Assembly: GCF_030409635.1 (NCBI RefSeq) | Contig: NZ_JAUFQF010000004.1 | Coordinates: 1,026,241-1,090,240, forward strand | From: Vibrio agarivorans | GTDB lineage: Bacteria > Pseudomonadota > Gammaproteobacteria > Enterobacterales > Vibrionaceae | Direction: 5' to 3' | Length of the DNA stretch: 64,000 nucleotides | Shown: piece after piece, positions 5,357-29,180 of the stretch | Position numbering within the stretch: position 1 is the first letter of the stretch | How the letters are laid out: each line of letters begins with the position of its first letter | Notes under the pieces: generated by a model | Seen by the model: only the letters and a program-made list of their open reading frames with translations | The model's database searches: none | What the model was told of the DNA's origin: nothing | Program-made: the position numbers and the translations under genes

Positions 5357-6220
5357 ATGACACTTATTAGGTTACTAGTTGTTGGTATGTTCACTATGCC
5401 AACCTTGCTACTCGCACAAACCATTCAAAAACCATTGGACTTGGTGGAATGGCGATTTTCAGGCAACCGATTCCAATGTTTGATGGAGACGCCTCTCAAG
5501 TTTGATGGCCATGCTCGCATTCAAGTTCAATCAGGTAAAGAGCCAGAGTTATTGATTGAAACCTTTCAAAGACCAGCCGCATTCGATTCTGCATGGCTGA
5601 GCGTTAACCAGCAGGTTTGGCGCATCAATGCTCAAGTTGAGCGTTGGTTAGACGGAGATTCAGCAGGAGAGTATGGCGTGCGTTTTTATGATGCTCAGAC
5701 GATTAAGTCTTTGCTGAATCAGATGGAAAAAGGCGCTTGGGCGCAGGTTTCAGTATTGGATAAGCAGACAGGTAAGCCGATCAGTTGGGATATCCCAGCG
5801 GTTAATTTTTCCCACCCAATGCAAGAAATGAAGCTCTGTATGGCGAACTTGTTACCGATGAGCTACTCGCAGGCCAAAGATAACCAATTCTACTTTAACT
5901 CGAACGCGACCGAGCTTGCTAAGAGCGATAAGCGCGTGCTTGATGATTTGGTTCAGTACATCAGCTGGGACTCTTCCCTTACGACTATTTTAATTGATGG
6001 TCATACGGATGATCAGGGGCATGCATTGAGTAATATTGAGCTTTCCCGTCAACGTGCTAATCAAGTGCGCAACTATCTTGTGAGTCAGGGCGTTAATGGC
6101 AAAAAGATTCAAGTTCGAGCTCATGGTCAGCGTTACCCTCAAGTCAACCATAGTGATGCTCAAACACGACATAAAAACCGTCGTGTTCAAGTGCGCTTGG
6201 TTCAAGGAGGTGCATCGTGA
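5357..6220 (+). CDS. motY: Sodium/proton motor T-ring protein MotY (lateral)
   Basis: 287 residues from the ATG at 5357, chosen over the in-frame ATG at 5321 because it has a GAAGGA ribosome site 7 bases upstream and begins a clean signal peptide (MTLIRLLVVGMFTMPTLLLA). MotY is a periplasmic T-ring protein that holds stator units around the flagellar motor. The N-terminal half is the MotY-specific domain. The C-terminal half (about 175-283) is an OmpA-like peptidoglycan-binding domain with ILIDGHTDDQG and the LSRQRANQVRNYL helix. It overlaps lafK by 4 bases, tying motor and regulator expression together. Confidence 0.93.
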   Translation: MTLIRLLVVGMFTMPTLLLAQTIQKPLDLVEWRFSGNRFQCLMETPLKFDGHARIQVQSGKEPELLIETFQRPAAFDSAWLSVNQQVWRINAQVERWLDGDSAGEYGVRFYDAQTIKSLLNQMEKGAWAQVSVLDKQTGKPISWDIPAVNFSHPMQEMKLCMANLLPMSYSQAKDNQFYFNSNATELAKSDKRVLDDLVQYISWDSSLTTILIDGHTDDQGHALSNIELSRQRANQVRNYLVSQGVNGKKIQVRAHGQRYPQVNHSDAQTRHKNRRVQVRLVQGGAS

Positions 6221-7596
6221 ATCGCGATGGACGCACTCAGATTATCTTTGCTCATCCTTGTCTTGAGCACTCATACCGTGTTCAGCAAGATATCGAGCGC
6301 GCAGGTTACTCTTGTGTTTGCTTTACCGCAGGCTTTGATGCCCTGATTCGTTTAAGCGCAGCGCCAGACGCTATTTTAATCGCCTCATCTAAGCTCACAG
6401 ATATGGCGCTGCTAGAAGTGATCGAAAAATCAAAGCATCTTTCCCCGCACTCGACCACCATCGCCATGGTGGATTACACCAGCAACCAGTTGGCAAGTGA
6501 GGCGATGCGTGCCGGAGCTTCGGACTATCTGCTAGAGCCTTATCAACCTCAGCAATTGATTGACTTGATTCAGCGCGTCTCAACCGTGCGCCGAACCTCT
6601 GATGATCTCGTTGCCAGCAGTTGGCGCAGCCAACAAGTACTGCAACTTGCTCACCGCGCAGCACAAACAGATGCCACAGTACTCATCACCGGTGAGTCTG
6701 GGACGGGTAAAGAAGTGCTAGCAAAATATGTACACCAGCATTCATCACGCAAGGACGCGCCTTTTGTTGCGATTAACTGTGCAGCTATTCCGGAGTCAAT
6801 GCTAGAAGCGGTACTGTTTGGCCATGTTAAGGGAGCATTTACGGGAGCGACTTCAGCCCAAGCAGGTAAGTTTGAAGAAGCTGAAGGTGGGACGCTGCTA
6901 TTGGATGAGATTGGTGAAATGCCGATGGCGGTCCAAGCAAAATTGCTGCGTGTCTTGCAAGAGCGTCAAGTTGAGCGTATCGGCAGCCACAAAGCGATCC
7001 AGCTTGATATCCGAATTATCGCCGCTACCAACGTAGACCTTCAGCAAGCAGTCGCTGAGCGTAAATTCAGACAGGACTTGTACTACCGCTTGGATGTGCT
7101 GCCTTTGCAATGGCCACCGCTGCGCGAGCGCAAAGAAGATATCCTGCCGTTAGCTGACCATTTCATTGCCAAATATAATCGAGGCTGTAATGAAACCTGT
7201 CGTTTAACCGCAGAAGCTCAACAAGCCCTTGTGACCTATGACTGGGTTGGCAATATCCGTGAGCTAGAGAACACCATTCAACGCGCATTAGTTATGCGTC
7301 ATAGCACATGGATTACTCCACAAGATCTTATGTTGCCGACACTGCCCTGTGTTGCTGCGGCCGTCGACCGTCCACTGACGCCAGAGATGCAGCCACAGGC
7401 GCGACTAAAGAGCACTAAAAAGCACGCTGAAAATCAGTTCATTCTCGACACGTTGGCTAAATATGACGGGCGCAGAAACTTAACCGCAGAAGCTTTAGGA
7501 ATTACAACGCGAGCTTTGAGATACAAGCTTGCGGCTATGAGAGATCAGGGAATCGATGTCGATACCGTTCGCCAATATGCCCATTCAGCGGCTTAA
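6217..7596 (+). CDS. lafK: LafK, sigma-54-dependent activator of lateral flagellar genes
   Basis: 459 residues with a GTG start overlapping the motY stop. It has three parts. A receiver-like domain spans 1-125. A sigma-54 activator AAA+ domain spans about 130-365, with Walker A GESGTGKE (159-166), the sigma-54 contact loop GAFTGA (206-211) and Walker B LLLDEIG (227-233). A Fis-type helix-turn-helix lies at the C-terminus (GRRNLTAEALGITTRALRYKL). The receiver-like domain lacks the phosphate-accepting Asp (Ala56 in PDAILIA), the acidic pair (Ala12-His13) and the conserved Lys (Glu107 in YLLEP), so it should not be phosphorylated. In Vibrio parahaemolyticus LafK is the master activator of lateral flagella. 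Candidate targets here are the flgB and fliD promoters. Confidence 0.93.
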   Translation: MNRDGRTQIIFAHPCLEHSYRVQQDIERAGYSCVCFTAGFDALIRLSAAPDAILIASSKLTDMALLEVIEKSKHLSPHSTTIAMVDYTSNQLASEAMRAGASDYLLEPYQPQQLIDLIQRVSTVRRTSDDLVASSWRSQQVLQLAHRAAQTDATVLITGESGTGKEVLAKYVHQHSSRKDAPFVAINCAAIPESMLEAVLFGHVKGAFTGATSAQAGKFEEAEGGTLLLDEIGEMPMAVQAKLLRVLQERQVERIGSHKAIQLDIRIIAATNVDLQQAVAERKFRQDLYYRLDVLPLQWPPLRERKEDILPLADHFIAKYNRGCNETCRLTAEAQQALVTYDWVGNIRELENTIQRALVMRHSTWITPQDLMLPTLPCVAAAVDRPLTPEMQPQARLKSTKKHAENQFILDTLAKYDGRRNLTAEALGITTRALRYKLAAMRDQGIDVDTVRQYAHSAA

Positions 7597-14178: not shown

Positions 14179-14916
14179 TTAAAACAGCGTTTGTACTTTG
14201 CCAGGCTCGATGATGATGGCGTTAATGATGTTGCCAGAACGGACATTACGAACACGAATTTGTTGGTTGTCATAACCGCTTTCCAGCGCGACTCCAGCTG
14301 TGGATGTAGAAAAGCCATCACCACTCGCCATCATGACCACTTGTTCGCCACGCTGAATGATATAGGGCGCACTGACTCTTTCGGGTGAAATCATCCGTCC
14401 TTGACGGATCTGTCGCTGAGCGCGCTGATTAATCAGACGTGAAGGTAGAGCAACAAAATCACGACTGAGTCGTGAGAGCGGCATAGTGCGCATTTCAATG
14501 TCCTCAACCGAGATTAAACTGTCCTTCGCAATAGTGTGCTTAGCATAGGCGACTTGCACCTGTGCATCAAAGTGCGCTTGAGCCTGAATGCTCCAACCAG
14601 ACACCTCAGAGCAGGTGACTCGATAACGTAAGTTACCTGCAGGAAAGCGGCGCTTATCTCGCCTTTCTACCTCAAGTGGTTGTGAGCATGCGAGCCGATG
14701 GCTGCCTGATGGCAAGGTTGTTGAGATCTCTGGCTGTTCCAATTGCCAGCCATTGTTTTGCTGACTGACTTCAATCTGGCGTGTGATATCCGACTCAATC
14801 GCTGCTGAAATAACGTCATTGAGTCTGCTGTCTGCACCTTCACTGGCCACCGATGTTGCAACCAAGACTAAACCGGTCAGTCCGATTAACGCCTGTCGAC
14901 AAATATTCTTCTTCAT
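14179..14916 (-). CDS. flgA: Lateral flagellar P-ring chaperone FlgA
   Basis: 245 residues with an N-terminal signal segment (KKNICRQALIGLTGLVLVATSVAS). FlgA is a periplasmic chaperone for FlgI in P-ring assembly. The C-terminal SAF-type domain is visible from about residue 120, with DSLISVEDIEMRTMPLSRL, the RQIRQGRMI hinge and the closing VRNVRSGNIINAIIIEPGKV. It is divergent from flgB. The 168-base gap between them holds the flgB sigma-54 promoter and a candidate activator site. Confidence 0.94.
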   Translation of the reverse strand: MKKNICRQALIGLTGLVLVATSVASEGADSRLNDVISAAIESDITRQIEVSQQNNGWQLEQPEISTTLPSGSHRLACSQPLEVERRDKRRFPAGNLRYRVTCSEVSGWSIQAQAHFDAQVQVAYAKHTIAKDSLISVEDIEMRTMPLSRLSRDFVALPSRLINQRAQRQIRQGRMISPERVSAPYIIQRGEQVVMMASGDGFSTSTAGVALESGYDNQQIRVRNVRSGNIINAIIIEPGKVQTLF

Positions 14917-14947: not shown

Positions 14948-14975
14948 CTTCCTATTGGGCGGAAATATTACTTCC
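14948..14975. promoter_or_regulatory. Candidate LafK activator site upstream of flgB
   Basis: Three alternating half sites CTTCC (14948-14952), CGGAA (14960-14964) and CTTCC (14971-14975), centred about 90 bases upstream of the expected flgB transcription start. The same arrangement, with spacing differing by one base, occurs at 27630-27656 upstream of the fliD sigma-54 promoter. A second palindrome CCTAAG/CTTAGG (14974-14987) touches its right end. Function is inferred from shared position and shape; no binding data exist here. Confidence 0.5.
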
Positions 14976-15026
14976 TAAGCACTTAGGTTTTGATTTCAAT
15001 TTATTAAAAATCAATAACTTAAAAAC

Positions 15027-15042
15027 TGGCACGTAACTTGTT
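15027..15042 (+). promoter_or_regulatory. Sigma-54 promoter for flgBCDEFGHIJKL
   Basis: TGGCACGTAACTTGTT matches the sigma-54 consensus TGGCACG-N4-TTGC at 14 of the conserved and spacer positions, with GG and the -12 dinucleotide 10 bases apart. The one weak point is GT rather than GC at -12. It lies 42 bases upstream of the flgB ATG, giving a leader of about 30 bases. Confidence 0.8.
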
Positions 15043-15084: not shown

Positions 15085-15450
15085 ATGACAATCAGTTTTG
15101 ATAGTGCTCTTGGCGTTCATCCTCACGCACTCAATCTGCGTGCAGAGCGCTCTAAGGTGATCGCAGGCAACTTAGCAAATGTGGATACCCCAGGGTTTAA
15201 AGCGCGTGATTACGACTTTCAAGCAGCGCTAGCTGAAGTCGAGACTCGTGCTCAATTAGGTCATTCGATAGAGCTGTCTACTGAGCAGCTTAAATATCGC
15301 AATCCATACAACAACTCGGTGGATGGCAATACCGTTGAGCTGGGCGTAGAGCAGGCAGCATTTGCACAAAACTCAATGGACTTTGAAACCAGTTTAACGT
15401 TCCTCAATATGAAGTTTAAAGGGCTGTCGACAGCCATTACAGGTCAGTAA
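15085..15450 (+). CDS. flgB: Lateral flagellar proximal rod protein FlgB
   Basis: 121 residues. FlgB is one of the proximal rod subunits exported through the basal body. The N-terminal rod motif region (RAERSKVIAGNLANVDTPGFKA) and the C-terminal helix (MDFETSLTFLNMKFKGLSTAI) are typical of the flagellar rod family. It is the first gene of the flgB-L operon, with GCAAGGA upstream of the ATG. Confidence 0.96.
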   Translation: MTISFDSALGVHPHALNLRAERSKVIAGNLANVDTPGFKARDYDFQAALAEVETRAQLGHSIELSTEQLKYRNPYNNSVDGNTVELGVEQAAFAQNSMDFETSLTFLNMKFKGLSTAITGQ

Positions 15451-25396: not shown

Positions 25397-25464
25397 AGAT
25401 GTCAGAGCTCTCGCTCAGAAGTGATGAGCTTTATCCGCGACTTATTAATATAGCGAGGCAACCC

Positions 25465-26052
25465 ATGCAGTCTCAACTTCCACCCGGCATCGAAAAATTG
25501 GTTCGCATCGAACCACAGCAACTGAAAAGTGAACAGCAACTCTCACAACCTGCACAAAGTGCCACGCACGTGCCAGCTAGGCATGGCCAGCAGCAACTGC
25601 CGCATTTAACCATGCCGCTTGCCCAGTGGCAGGTGGTGAGAATGCTTTATCCGCCACATTCCAACACCGCAACAAGCAAAGATGCCTTGTATCAAGTGCA
25701 GCAAATGGTGTCACCCACGCTGCGTATGCCAACAGAGAGTGGCGTATTGACAGCAAAATTTGAGTTAGAGGGACAGGCTCATCAGGTGCGCTGGCAGATA
25801 ACTCAAGGGGAGACGCAGCTCCTTGCCTCAACGCTGGCCAATGAACAGGTATTGAAGCTTATTCCTTCAATCAGCGGCGGTTGGCATTTAGTGAGTCGCG
25901 GATTGGATATGGTCGAGCCGTTGCAACTGTTATGGGGCGCAAATGATAGAATCTCTATCAACTCTGACCGCGATAACTCTCACCTTTTGTGGTTTAAACG
26001 TGTGTTAGTTGTGGCTTTTGGTGTCACGGCGATTCTTGTTTTGGTTATCTAG
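25465..26052 (+). CDS. lafZ: LafZ-like small protein with C-terminal membrane anchor
   Basis: 196 residues from the ATG at 25465. An earlier in-frame ATG at 25399 abuts the REP-like repeat and adds an unconvincing N-terminus. The sequence is Gln-rich up to about residue 50, then an unassigned globular part with LRMPTESGVLTAKFELEGQA, and ends in one strong membrane helix (LLWFKRVLVVAFGVTAILVL) with the terminus immediately after it. That topology suggests a tail-anchored inner-membrane protein with a cytoplasmic body. Lateral flagellar loci of Aeromonas and E. coli Flag-2 have a membrane protein gene lafZ just before the flagellin. I see no DNA-binding motif. Function is unknown. Confidence 0.5.
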   Translation: MQSQLPPGIEKLVRIEPQQLKSEQQLSQPAQSATHVPARHGQQQLPHLTMPLAQWQVVRMLYPPHSNTATSKDALYQVQQMVSPTLRMPTESGVLTAKFELEGQAHQVRWQITQGETQLLASTLANEQVLKLIPSISGGWHLVSRGLDMVEPLQLLWGANDRISINSDRDNSHLLWFKRVLVVAFGVTAILVLVI

Positions 26053-27602: not shown

Positions 27603-27660
27603 AAGCGGAATCAAAGGTGAAGTTCGATGCTTCCGTTATGCGGAAGTGGCCCTTCCGCTT
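27603..27660. promoter_or_regulatory. Candidate LafK activator site upstream of fliD
   Basis: Core half sites CTTCC (27630-27634), CGGAA (27641-27645) and CTTCC (27652-27656), like those at 14948-14975 upstream of flgB. Arms extend to CTTCCG/CGGAAG/CTTCCGC here, and an outer copy AAGCGGAA (27603-27610) pairs with TTCCGCTT (27653-27660). The core is centred about 135 bases upstream of the expected fliD start point, a normal enhancer position for a sigma-54 activator. Because it lies upstream of the promoter it is more likely a DNA site than an mRNA attenuator. Confidence 0.5.
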
Positions 27661-27750
27661 AATGTCAAAATGGCGCTGAAAATGCGCAAAAATCACGCCT
27701 TTAGCGATGAAATAGTGCTGAAATGCGTCAAATAGGAACAGGTTTAAGTT

Positions 27751-27766
27751 TGGAACACATCTTGCT
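27751..27766 (+). promoter_or_regulatory. Sigma-54 promoter for fliD-lafU operon
   Basis: TGGAACACATCTTGCT has GG and GC exactly 10 bases apart and matches the TTGCT part of the sigma-54 consensus. It lies 80 bases before the fliD ATG, giving a leader of about 68 bases. Together with the upstream half sites it points to LafK control of the operon that encodes LafS. Confidence 0.75.
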
Positions 27767-27845: not shown

Positions 27846-29180
27846 ATGATCGACCCAGCACAAATGGCGATGCAGATGGTAATGATTCAGCGTCAGCCGT
27901 TTGATATTCAATATGCCAACCAACAAAAAATGTATGAGACTCAGCTCAACGCGTGGAAAGAGATTGATTCTGCGTTTAGTAGCTTTAAATCAGCACTTGA
28001 TGACATTAATAAAGCAGATAACAGCTTTGTAAAGAACTCAGTAACAGTAAGTGAAGATGGATATATCAGTGCATCGGCTGACAGGTATGCTCGAGAGGGG
28101 TCATACGACATTTTTGTCGAGAAATTAGCTCAAGCTCAACAAGGGACTGTCGGCTTTGGTGATGGCACTTTACCAGCACAAGGTTCTATGACGCTGAATA
28201 TACCTGGTGAAGAGGGCGAGGTGGTTATTAACTTTGCTGACTTCGAAGATATTCATCAATTAGCTGATCATGTTAATGAGTTGGAAGGAATGACTGCGAG
28301 TGTTGTTCGTACTGATGGTGAATTGAATTTGCTGTTGAGCTCCGAAGACACTGGAACGGAAAACTCTTTTGAAGTTCGCTTTGACAATTTGAGCGATGGT
28401 AGCGAGCTCGATTACAACGAGTTAAGTGGAGCACAAGACGCGGTTATCTATCTTGGTGGAGAGGATGGCTTACGTGTAACAAGTAGCAATAACACTTTTG
28501 ATGATGTCATTTACGGAGTTTCTTTCGATGTCACGAAAGCTCAAGAGTCAGGTGATGTCCCAATCACGCTGGTTGTTGGCACAGACCAAGAAGCATCAAA
28601 GGAAGCGGTTGAGGAATTTGTTGATGCATACAACACACTGATGCGAGTGCTGCTCAAGCACACTCAAACCGAGTATCAAATCGAAAATGATGATTCAGAT
28701 GATGAAGATAATGACTACGAAAAAATCACTGAAGCTGGCGTTCTAGCTAGTGATTCAACCGCTCGCAGTATCAAAAATACTCTCAACAACACGATGCGTG
28801 GTCTCTACGGCGAAGGCACACTTTACAGCATCGGTATTGAAGCAAACCGCGATGGCACTCTAAAAATCGACGGTGAGCGCTTTGAAAAAGTGCTTGCAGA
28901 AGAGCCAGAAAAAATTGATGCCCTGTTCTTTGGTGAACAAGGTGTGCTGAACAATCTTGAGAAGGTGATTGAACCGTACACCGGCAGCAGCAATAGCGGC
29001 AGCAATCTACTTAAATCTCGCCAAGACACCCTCCAAGGCAACATCGACCGCGTTGACGACAAAAAAGAACGTCTCGATTACCGCATGGAAAAAACCTATG
29101 ACCGATACCTGCGTGAATACACTGCGATGCAGCAAGTGATGTCACAGATGCAGTCTACCGGCTCAATGTTTATGTACTAA
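27846..29180 (+). CDS. fliD: Lateral filament cap protein FliD (LafB)
   Basis: 444 residues. FliD caps the filament and inserts flagellin. The N-terminal coiled-coil region (residues 1-50), FliD-type domains with SYDIFVEKLAQAQQGTVGFG, and a C-terminal helix with RQDTLQGNIDRVDDKKERLD followed by QQVMSQMQSTGSMFMY are as expected. An acidic low-complexity stretch, ENDDSDDEDNDYEK at about residues 280-293, interrupts the fourth region. It is the first gene of the operon fliD-fliS-fliT-fliK-fliL-lafS-lafT-lafU, and fliS follows after 9 bases. Confidence 0.94.
   Translation: MIDPAQMAMQMVMIQRQPFDIQYANQQKMYETQLNAWKEIDSAFSSFKSALDDINKADNSFVKNSVTVSEDGYISASADRYAREGSYDIFVEKLAQAQQGTVGFGDGTLPAQGSMTLNIPGEEGEVVINFADFEDIHQLADHVNELEGMTASVVRTDGELNLLLSSEDTGTENSFEVRFDNLSDGSELDYNELSGAQDAVIYLGGEDGLRVTSSNNTFDDVIYGVSFDVTKAQESGDVPITLVVGTDQEASKEAVEEFVDAYNTLMRVLLKHTQTEYQIENDDSDDEDNDYEKITEAGVLASDSTARSIKNTLNNTMRGLYGEGTLYSIGIEANRDGTLKIDGERFEKVLAEEPEKIDALFFGEQGVLNNLEKVIEPYTGSSNSGSNLLKSRQDTLQGNIDRVDDKKERLDYRMEKTYDRYLREYTAMQQVMSQMQSTGSMFMY

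Follow-up and report, generated by a model that had tools for sequence, protein, structure and literature searches.

In this work, two nearly identical three-part arrays were observed upstream of two sigma-54 promoters in a lateral flagellar gene cluster of Vibrio agarivorans, which raises the question of what protein reads them and to what effect. The window, by which we mean the whole stretch of 64,000 nucleotides that was analysed, contains flgB and fliD together with relatives of motY, lafK, flgA, flgM, lafA, a sigma-28-type factor and motAB (Table 1). Curated cut-offs were passed by flgB, flgA and flgM, and the assignments of fliD, motY, lafA and motB are best matches below cut-off. The fliD gene heads a cluster with fliS, fliL, fliA and motAB, in which fliS, fliL, a sigma-70-type factor and motA were recognised by Pfam and a motB-like gene by NCBIfam. 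The product of 6217..7596 is presumably LafK, a name that we assign from its position and from known relatives. A reading frame of 217 aa between flgL and lafA (25399-26052) gave no NCBIfam match.

Table 1. Features of the window around the two arrays
Feature	Position	Strand	Basis or remark
Three-part array before lateral flgB	14948..14975	+	Read directly; one of the two matches in the genome
Three-part array before lateral fliD	27630..27656	+	Read directly; the other of the two matches in the genome
Sigma-54 -24/-12 promoter of flgB, TGGCACGTAACTTGT	15027..15041	+	Recurs in this position in lateral relatives
Sigma-54 -24/-12 promoter of fliD, TGGAACACATCTTGC	27751..27765	+	Sequence match
IHF consensus WATCAANNNNTTR, exact match, between flgB array and promoter	15009..15021	+	
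IHF-like AATCACGCCTTTA, fliD side	27691..27703	+	One mismatch, weak
lafK, sigma-54 activator, AAA+ domain and Fis-type HTH	6217..7596	+	Pfam Sigma54_activat 2.6e-73, HTH_8 2.4e-06
flgA, divergent from flgB	14179..14916	-	NCBIfam flgA_cterm above cut-off
flgB, first gene of the lateral rod-hook operon	15085..15450	+	NCBIfam FlgB equivalogs above cut-off
fliD (lafB; filament cap)	27846..29180	+	Best NCBIfam matches FliD, all below cut-offs

The flgB copy reads CTTCC-N7-CGGAA-N6-CTTCC, with half-sites at 14948-14952, 14960-14964 and 14971-14975 and a core dyad, GGAA-N6-CTTCC, at 14961-14975. It sits in the intergenic region shared by flgA and flgB, 31 bases before the flgA start. The fliD copy reads CTTCC-N6-CGGAA-N6-CTTCC with the core dyad at 27642-27656. 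Both copies were re-read and proved to be exactly as the original prediction had described them, each upstream of a -24/-12 promoter in an arrangement that is kept in relatives, and the gap between array end and -24 box is 51 bases for flgB and 94 for fliD. The array pattern with spacers of 6-7 bases has two matches in the window (none in 100 shuffles) and exactly two in the whole genome of 4,907,847 bases, namely the flgB and fliD copies, where 0.02 would be expected from base composition; the pattern was derived from these same two sites, so these counts alone are circular, and its conservation elsewhere is the independent test. The core dyad is likewise confined in the window to these two sites (the fliD dyad, being nearly symmetric, was listed once on the minus strand as well). 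Neither array nor dyad was found in the window before the other laf promoters, those of motY, fliM, lafA and flgM, which agrees with the absence reported earlier.

Conservation was followed in a sample of 196 genomes of the genus, 56 of which contain a lateral flgB (E 6.2e-34 or better). The exact array was matched 25 times, in 23 genomes, and the reversed control pattern 12 times. Of the 25 array matches, 20 precede lateral flgB, another 3 precede lateral fliD and 2 fall within motY. All 23 genomes belong to the 56 with lateral flgB, and none to the 140 without. By a relaxed score, defined as the number of matched half-site bases (maximum 15), all 53 fetched lateral flgB upstreams reached 12-15, a single one standing at 12, whereas 424 shuffled upstreams scored 8-12, with three at 12 and 421 below it. 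Two further lateral flgB promoters (L038, L054) are exact, and the one left over, in G063, scores 8 and lacks the array, so that the array is kept at 55 of the 56 lateral flgB promoters of the genus. The flgB arrays of V. aestivus and V. mexicanus are identical to those in two of the genus genomes. No array was found at 15 polar flgB upstreams (relaxed scores 9-11) or at 15 flgB upstreams of a second type (8-11), both of which score like shuffles. Neither outcome that would have spoken against the original prediction, absence from orthologous promoters or equal frequency at unrelated sites, was observed. The second-type flgB genes (L163-L177), 45-51% identical, show neither array nor a scripted sigma-54 match, and this set is another flagellar system with other control.

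At lateral fliD, the upstream regions of 55 genomes were examined. The dyad GGAA-N6-CTTCC precedes the sigma-54 element in 54 of them, exactly in 51 and with one mismatch in 3, the sole absence being L153; 1100 shuffles of the 130 bases before each promoter gave no exact dyad and 21 within one mismatch. Most fliD promoters of the genus keep only the right-hand pair; its distance to -24 ranges from 40 to 61 bases and is 51-53 in most. The three-part fliD array is limited to the window species' own clade, at 94-95 bases. Many of these promoters have AGG, CGG or GGG at -24 in place of TGG. Since mostly only the right-hand pair is kept at fliD, the third half-site is an addition to a minimal unit, the dyad. 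The original prediction of a three-part motif therefore stands for both promoters of the window, but the minimal conserved unit is the dyad. The comparison that it had proposed, in the laf loci of other vibrios, has thus been borne out at the orthologous promoters of both flgB, with the array, and fliD, with the dyad.

An alignment of 48 distinct lateral flgB promoters, anchored on the -24/-12 element, revealed the anatomy of the site. Half-site columns mostly carry 1.5-1.9 bits, which is nearly the level of the promoter itself, and most spacer columns stay below 0.8; the outer half-sites are less strict at their first base, which is C or T. By these half-site bits and by the comparisons with shuffles at flgB and fliD, the element is a sequence-specific conserved site. 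Nearly all genomes of the genus have 41 bases from the array end to TGG, a few have 40 or 42, and the clade of the window species has 51. In many flgB promoters an additional TTTCC precedes the first half-site by about 20 bases. A second highly conserved block lies between the flgB array and -24. It fits the IHF consensus, WATCAANNNNTTR, to which the window has an exact match at 15009..15021. Of 53 lateral flgB promoters, 25 match this consensus exactly, compared with 7 of 1060 shuffles. The distances from dyad to -24 fall at 40-42, 50-54, 61-65, 75, 83-85 and 94-95 bases, near helical-turn steps. A Rayleigh test at 10.5 bases gave about 0.001 for 12 chosen classes and 0.0001 for 18 distinct values, although the hand-picked values are not independent of each other. 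The clustering suggests that the sites may lie on one face of the DNA, and we use it as supporting evidence only.

The combination of dyad and sigma-54 element was also searched for without regard to gene. It gave 118 hits in 75 of the 196 genomes against 28 for the reversed control. Lateral flgB accounts for 36 of the 118 and lateral fliD for 44; of the 38 that lie elsewhere, 11 are in lateral genomes. In the own clade (4 genomes), the version with 70-100 bases found one site each, at fliD only. With a looser short version, run on 7 genomes, flgB was recovered every time and fliD in three of them, and G000 and G007 each added a single off-target. Among the sites elsewhere, two genomes without a detected lateral flgB (G110 and G155; loci L215 and L216) have a GGAA..TTCC dyad, an IHF-like block and a sigma-54 promoter before a flagellar gene, whose start looks like FlgK by eye and which has a Pfam basal-body rod hit. 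The same type of pattern occurs in G084, G131, G067 and G195, and the gene was read in 2 of the 6 genomes. Possibly it is the site of a related activator at a polar promoter.

The exact arrays inside motY (L044, L045) belong to a wider pattern, in which two GGAA-N6-C/TTTCC dyads lie about 245 bases apart within the motY coding sequence in 15 of the 32 loci examined (lafK loci among L228-L257, and L044 and L045). The first encodes the conserved residues GKFYFR, as judged by eye, and is therefore ascribed to constraint on the coding sequence. In the second, GGA and TCC codons are retained on either side of variable ones, and this dyad is harder to explain by coding. A third target at motY-lafK was considered and put down to coding constraint, and a sigma-54-like match follows the dyad in one lafK locus (L257) only.

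Outside the genus, 26 lateral flgB loci of the order were compared. A GGAA-N5-7-TTCC dyad was found by script in 23, and the remaining three, all in family f16 (L267, L272, L281), show by eye a dyad with one extra base between its halves. Dyad and sigma-54 element were both scripted in 15 of the 26, at a distance of 53-65 bases, and eight more have the dyad with no sigma-54 match by script. Dyads occur at lateral flgB in six further families (f2, f6, f7, f16, f19 and f25). The three-part array with gaps of 5-7 bases scored at least 12 in 19 of 29 non-genus flgB loci versus 2 of 150 shuffles. The first half-site is often two bases nearer there, as seen by eye, which weakens the idea of one helical turn per step outside the genus. 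Ten order-level flgB stretches were fetched, of which L328, L329, L333 and L334 were dropped for want of a placeable flgB start, and two polar-type copies with sigma-54 elements (L331, L332) have no dyad. In family f19, which perhaps represents Flag-2-bearing enterobacteria, the dyad stands at 53 bases in L283 and L326 and with one mismatch in L327. Two Mangrovibacter contigs carry it at flgB and at fliD, and no dyad was found on a Moraxellaceae contig with a LafK relative (L008).

At fliD outside the genus, presence of the dyad follows the promoter class. With a strict sigma-54 element (TGGCAY-N5-TTGC, a cut-off set after the data had been seen), the dyad was found in 8 of 9 loci, versus 1 of 21 without (30 loci; Fisher 1.3e-5). 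In the strict loci it lies 40, 75, 83 or 85 bases before -24, and the sole strict promoter without it is L369, in G205. Of the 30 loci (L344-L373), a few of which may be polar copies, 21 lack a strict element, and 20 of these are also without a dyad. It therefore seems that the control of the fliD operon belongs to different regulatory classes in different families and has changed between them.

By comparing the distribution of the array with that of the regulator, a close association was observed. LafK orthologues (E 2e-149 or better, scored among only the 8 best first-look candidates per genome) were found in 53 of the 196 genus genomes, and all 53 have the array, which thus co-occurs with LafK and the lateral cluster. 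Two genomes with the array are without an intact LafK: in G009 the gene is split over two overlapping frames (C2:2307594-2308842), and in G099 none was found. In G096 (C169; one of the 53) the LafK frame breaks off before the HTH; its fliD is likewise split in two, a sign of sequencing errors or decay. Together, G009 and G096 suggest decay or assembly error of lafK with the enhancers kept. The LafK relatives of family f19 (G328, G352, G399, G436, G390) have short open frames, 345-374 residues long, in which the match starts only at about residue 124, and they seem, from sequence, to be without the N-terminal domain.

The original prediction read the array as a LafK enhancer, and the conservation, the absence at polar and second-type flgB and the array in every genome with a LafK orthologue support this reading. 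We consider it very probable that the array is the enhancer where LafK docks to activate the flgB and fliD operons. In published work, flgB promoter activity in Aeromonas falls significantly in a lafK mutant (PMC5013049), and fliM of V. parahaemolyticus is LafK-independent (PMC3930126). Both fit the presence and absence of the site, as fliM has no dyad in the window. Other published results count against it. The lafA and fliM promoters of Aeromonas fall too in the lafK mutant (PMC5013049). In V. parahaemolyticus, EMSA found RpoN bound to the flgB2 and lafA promoters and not to that of lafB (= fliD), though lafA has no dyad in the window (PMC9817140), and LafK can substitute for FlaK at polar promoters, despite which polar flgB has no array (PMC4481668). 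The -24 variants at many fliD promoters, the genomes with an array but a split, broken or missing lafK, the flgB dyad kept in G205 and the Moraxellaceae contig without a dyad weigh on the same side.

As to the binder itself, the lateral sigma-54 enhancer might be bound by the polar master regulator FlaK/FlrA or another activator, alone or with LafK. FlaK and LafK have the Fis-type HTH in common, and Plesiomonas is without LafK, yet its lateral genes are reported to be lowered on loss of FlaK (PMC11242183). Similarly, G205 has no recognised LafK (best match 6.7e-89, weak, with a FlaK-type HTH) and still keeps a single GGAA-TTCC dyad at flgB (L262), with no clear first half-site, beside a fliD with sigma-54 element and no dyad. 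However, polar flgB promoters, some with sigma-54 matches, are without the array, and exact arrays in the genus are confined to genomes with lateral flgB. The HTH stretch also differs. Among 73 aligned proteins it reads RALRY in 60, all LafK-type, and RTLRY in 12, all FlaK-type (L231 breaks off before it). Binding by FlaK or another activator is therefore judged improbable.

A repressor or nucleoid protein of the lateral system, in place of an activator, would be compatible with the upstream position, from which it could block looping, and lateral genes do have repressive inputs in OpaR and CalR. Nevertheless, the array tracks sigma-54 promoters and not lateral genes as such, as in the 20 of 21 non-genus fliD loci that lack both strict element and dyad, and it keeps an almost constant distance from -24, close to helical steps, so that we regard this explanation as very unlikely. 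Least credible of all is the reading that the array arose by chance or that an RNA hairpin or terminator has been taken for an operator. The sequence CTTCCG-N5-CGGAAG at fliD can indeed fold (-8.3 kcal/mol), but the flgB copy folds weakly (-3.0), and both elements are upstream of their promoters and hence outside those transcripts. The hairpin was rejected because only the fliD copy folds well, and chance is ruled out by conservation at fixed spacing across genomes.

Returning to LafK as the binder, we infer a course of events from the observed sequence, its conservation and spacing and its co-occurrence with sigma-54 promoters and LafK. LafK, encoded in the same cluster, would dock at the array and switch on two class-II operons, that of flgB for rod and hook and that of fliD for cap, export helpers, sigma-28 and stators. 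A LafK dimer would occupy the inverted pair GGAA-N6-CTTCC and place its HTHs in two adjacent major grooves. The CTTCC further upstream, and the TTTCC in many flgB promoters, may act as added half-sites that help more dimers to form the AAA+ hexamer. At flgB, IHF would bend the intervening DNA so that the hexamer could reach the sigma-54 polymerase at -24/-12, and this contact would drive open-complex formation.

The proposed LafK site can be set beside the enhancers of other activators. NtrC-type upstream activating sequences at sigma-54 promoters such as glnA are, like the element proposed here, inverted repeats that lie upstream of -24/-12 and are read by an activator with a Fis-type HTH; an IHF site often stands between. 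Their half-sites are TGCAC/GTGCA, whereas those here are TTCC/GGAA, and the flgB array has three alternating half-sites. The NorR triple enhancer likewise offers several equally spaced sites that may nucleate a hexamer, but it consists of three separate dyads and not of three half-sites about one helical turn apart. The FleQ boxes of Pseudomonas (GTCaNTAAAtTGAC) serve a flagellar sigma-54 activator that is homologous, and the promoters concerned carry IHF and sigma-54 sites as well (PMC6120874). Their sequence is unrelated to the array, in which the FleQ box was not found when the letters were compared by eye. Moreover, in the same study a robust FleQ consensus could not be defined genome-wide in P. 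fluorescens (PMC6120874), whereas the dyad is highly specific in the genomes examined. FlrC also acts at flagellar sigma-54 enhancers, those of the polar class III promoters of Vibrio cholerae; its sites are reported to lie typically downstream of the transcription start (PMC6504787), in contrast to the arrays and dyads here, 40-95 bases upstream of -24. No described LafK site was found in the open literature, and a description may exist in subscription papers.

A wider proposal may be added, which we regard as rather doubtful. The odd enhancer of three half-sites (CTTCC, CGGAA, CTTCC), alternating in direction with about one helical turn per step in the genus, might be an asymmetric seed for the hexamer, and array and dyad together might form a complete, helically phased two-promoter regulon code that lateral and Flag-2-like flagella would share in several families of the order.

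LafK turns on the swarming flagella in vibrios and their relatives. With a sharp consensus and known spacing, the direct LafK regulon would become predictable in each genome, with two promoters in the present one. The consensus would also help to separate direct from indirect targets in mutant data, and the array may provide a clean system for studying the assembly of an AAA+ activator.
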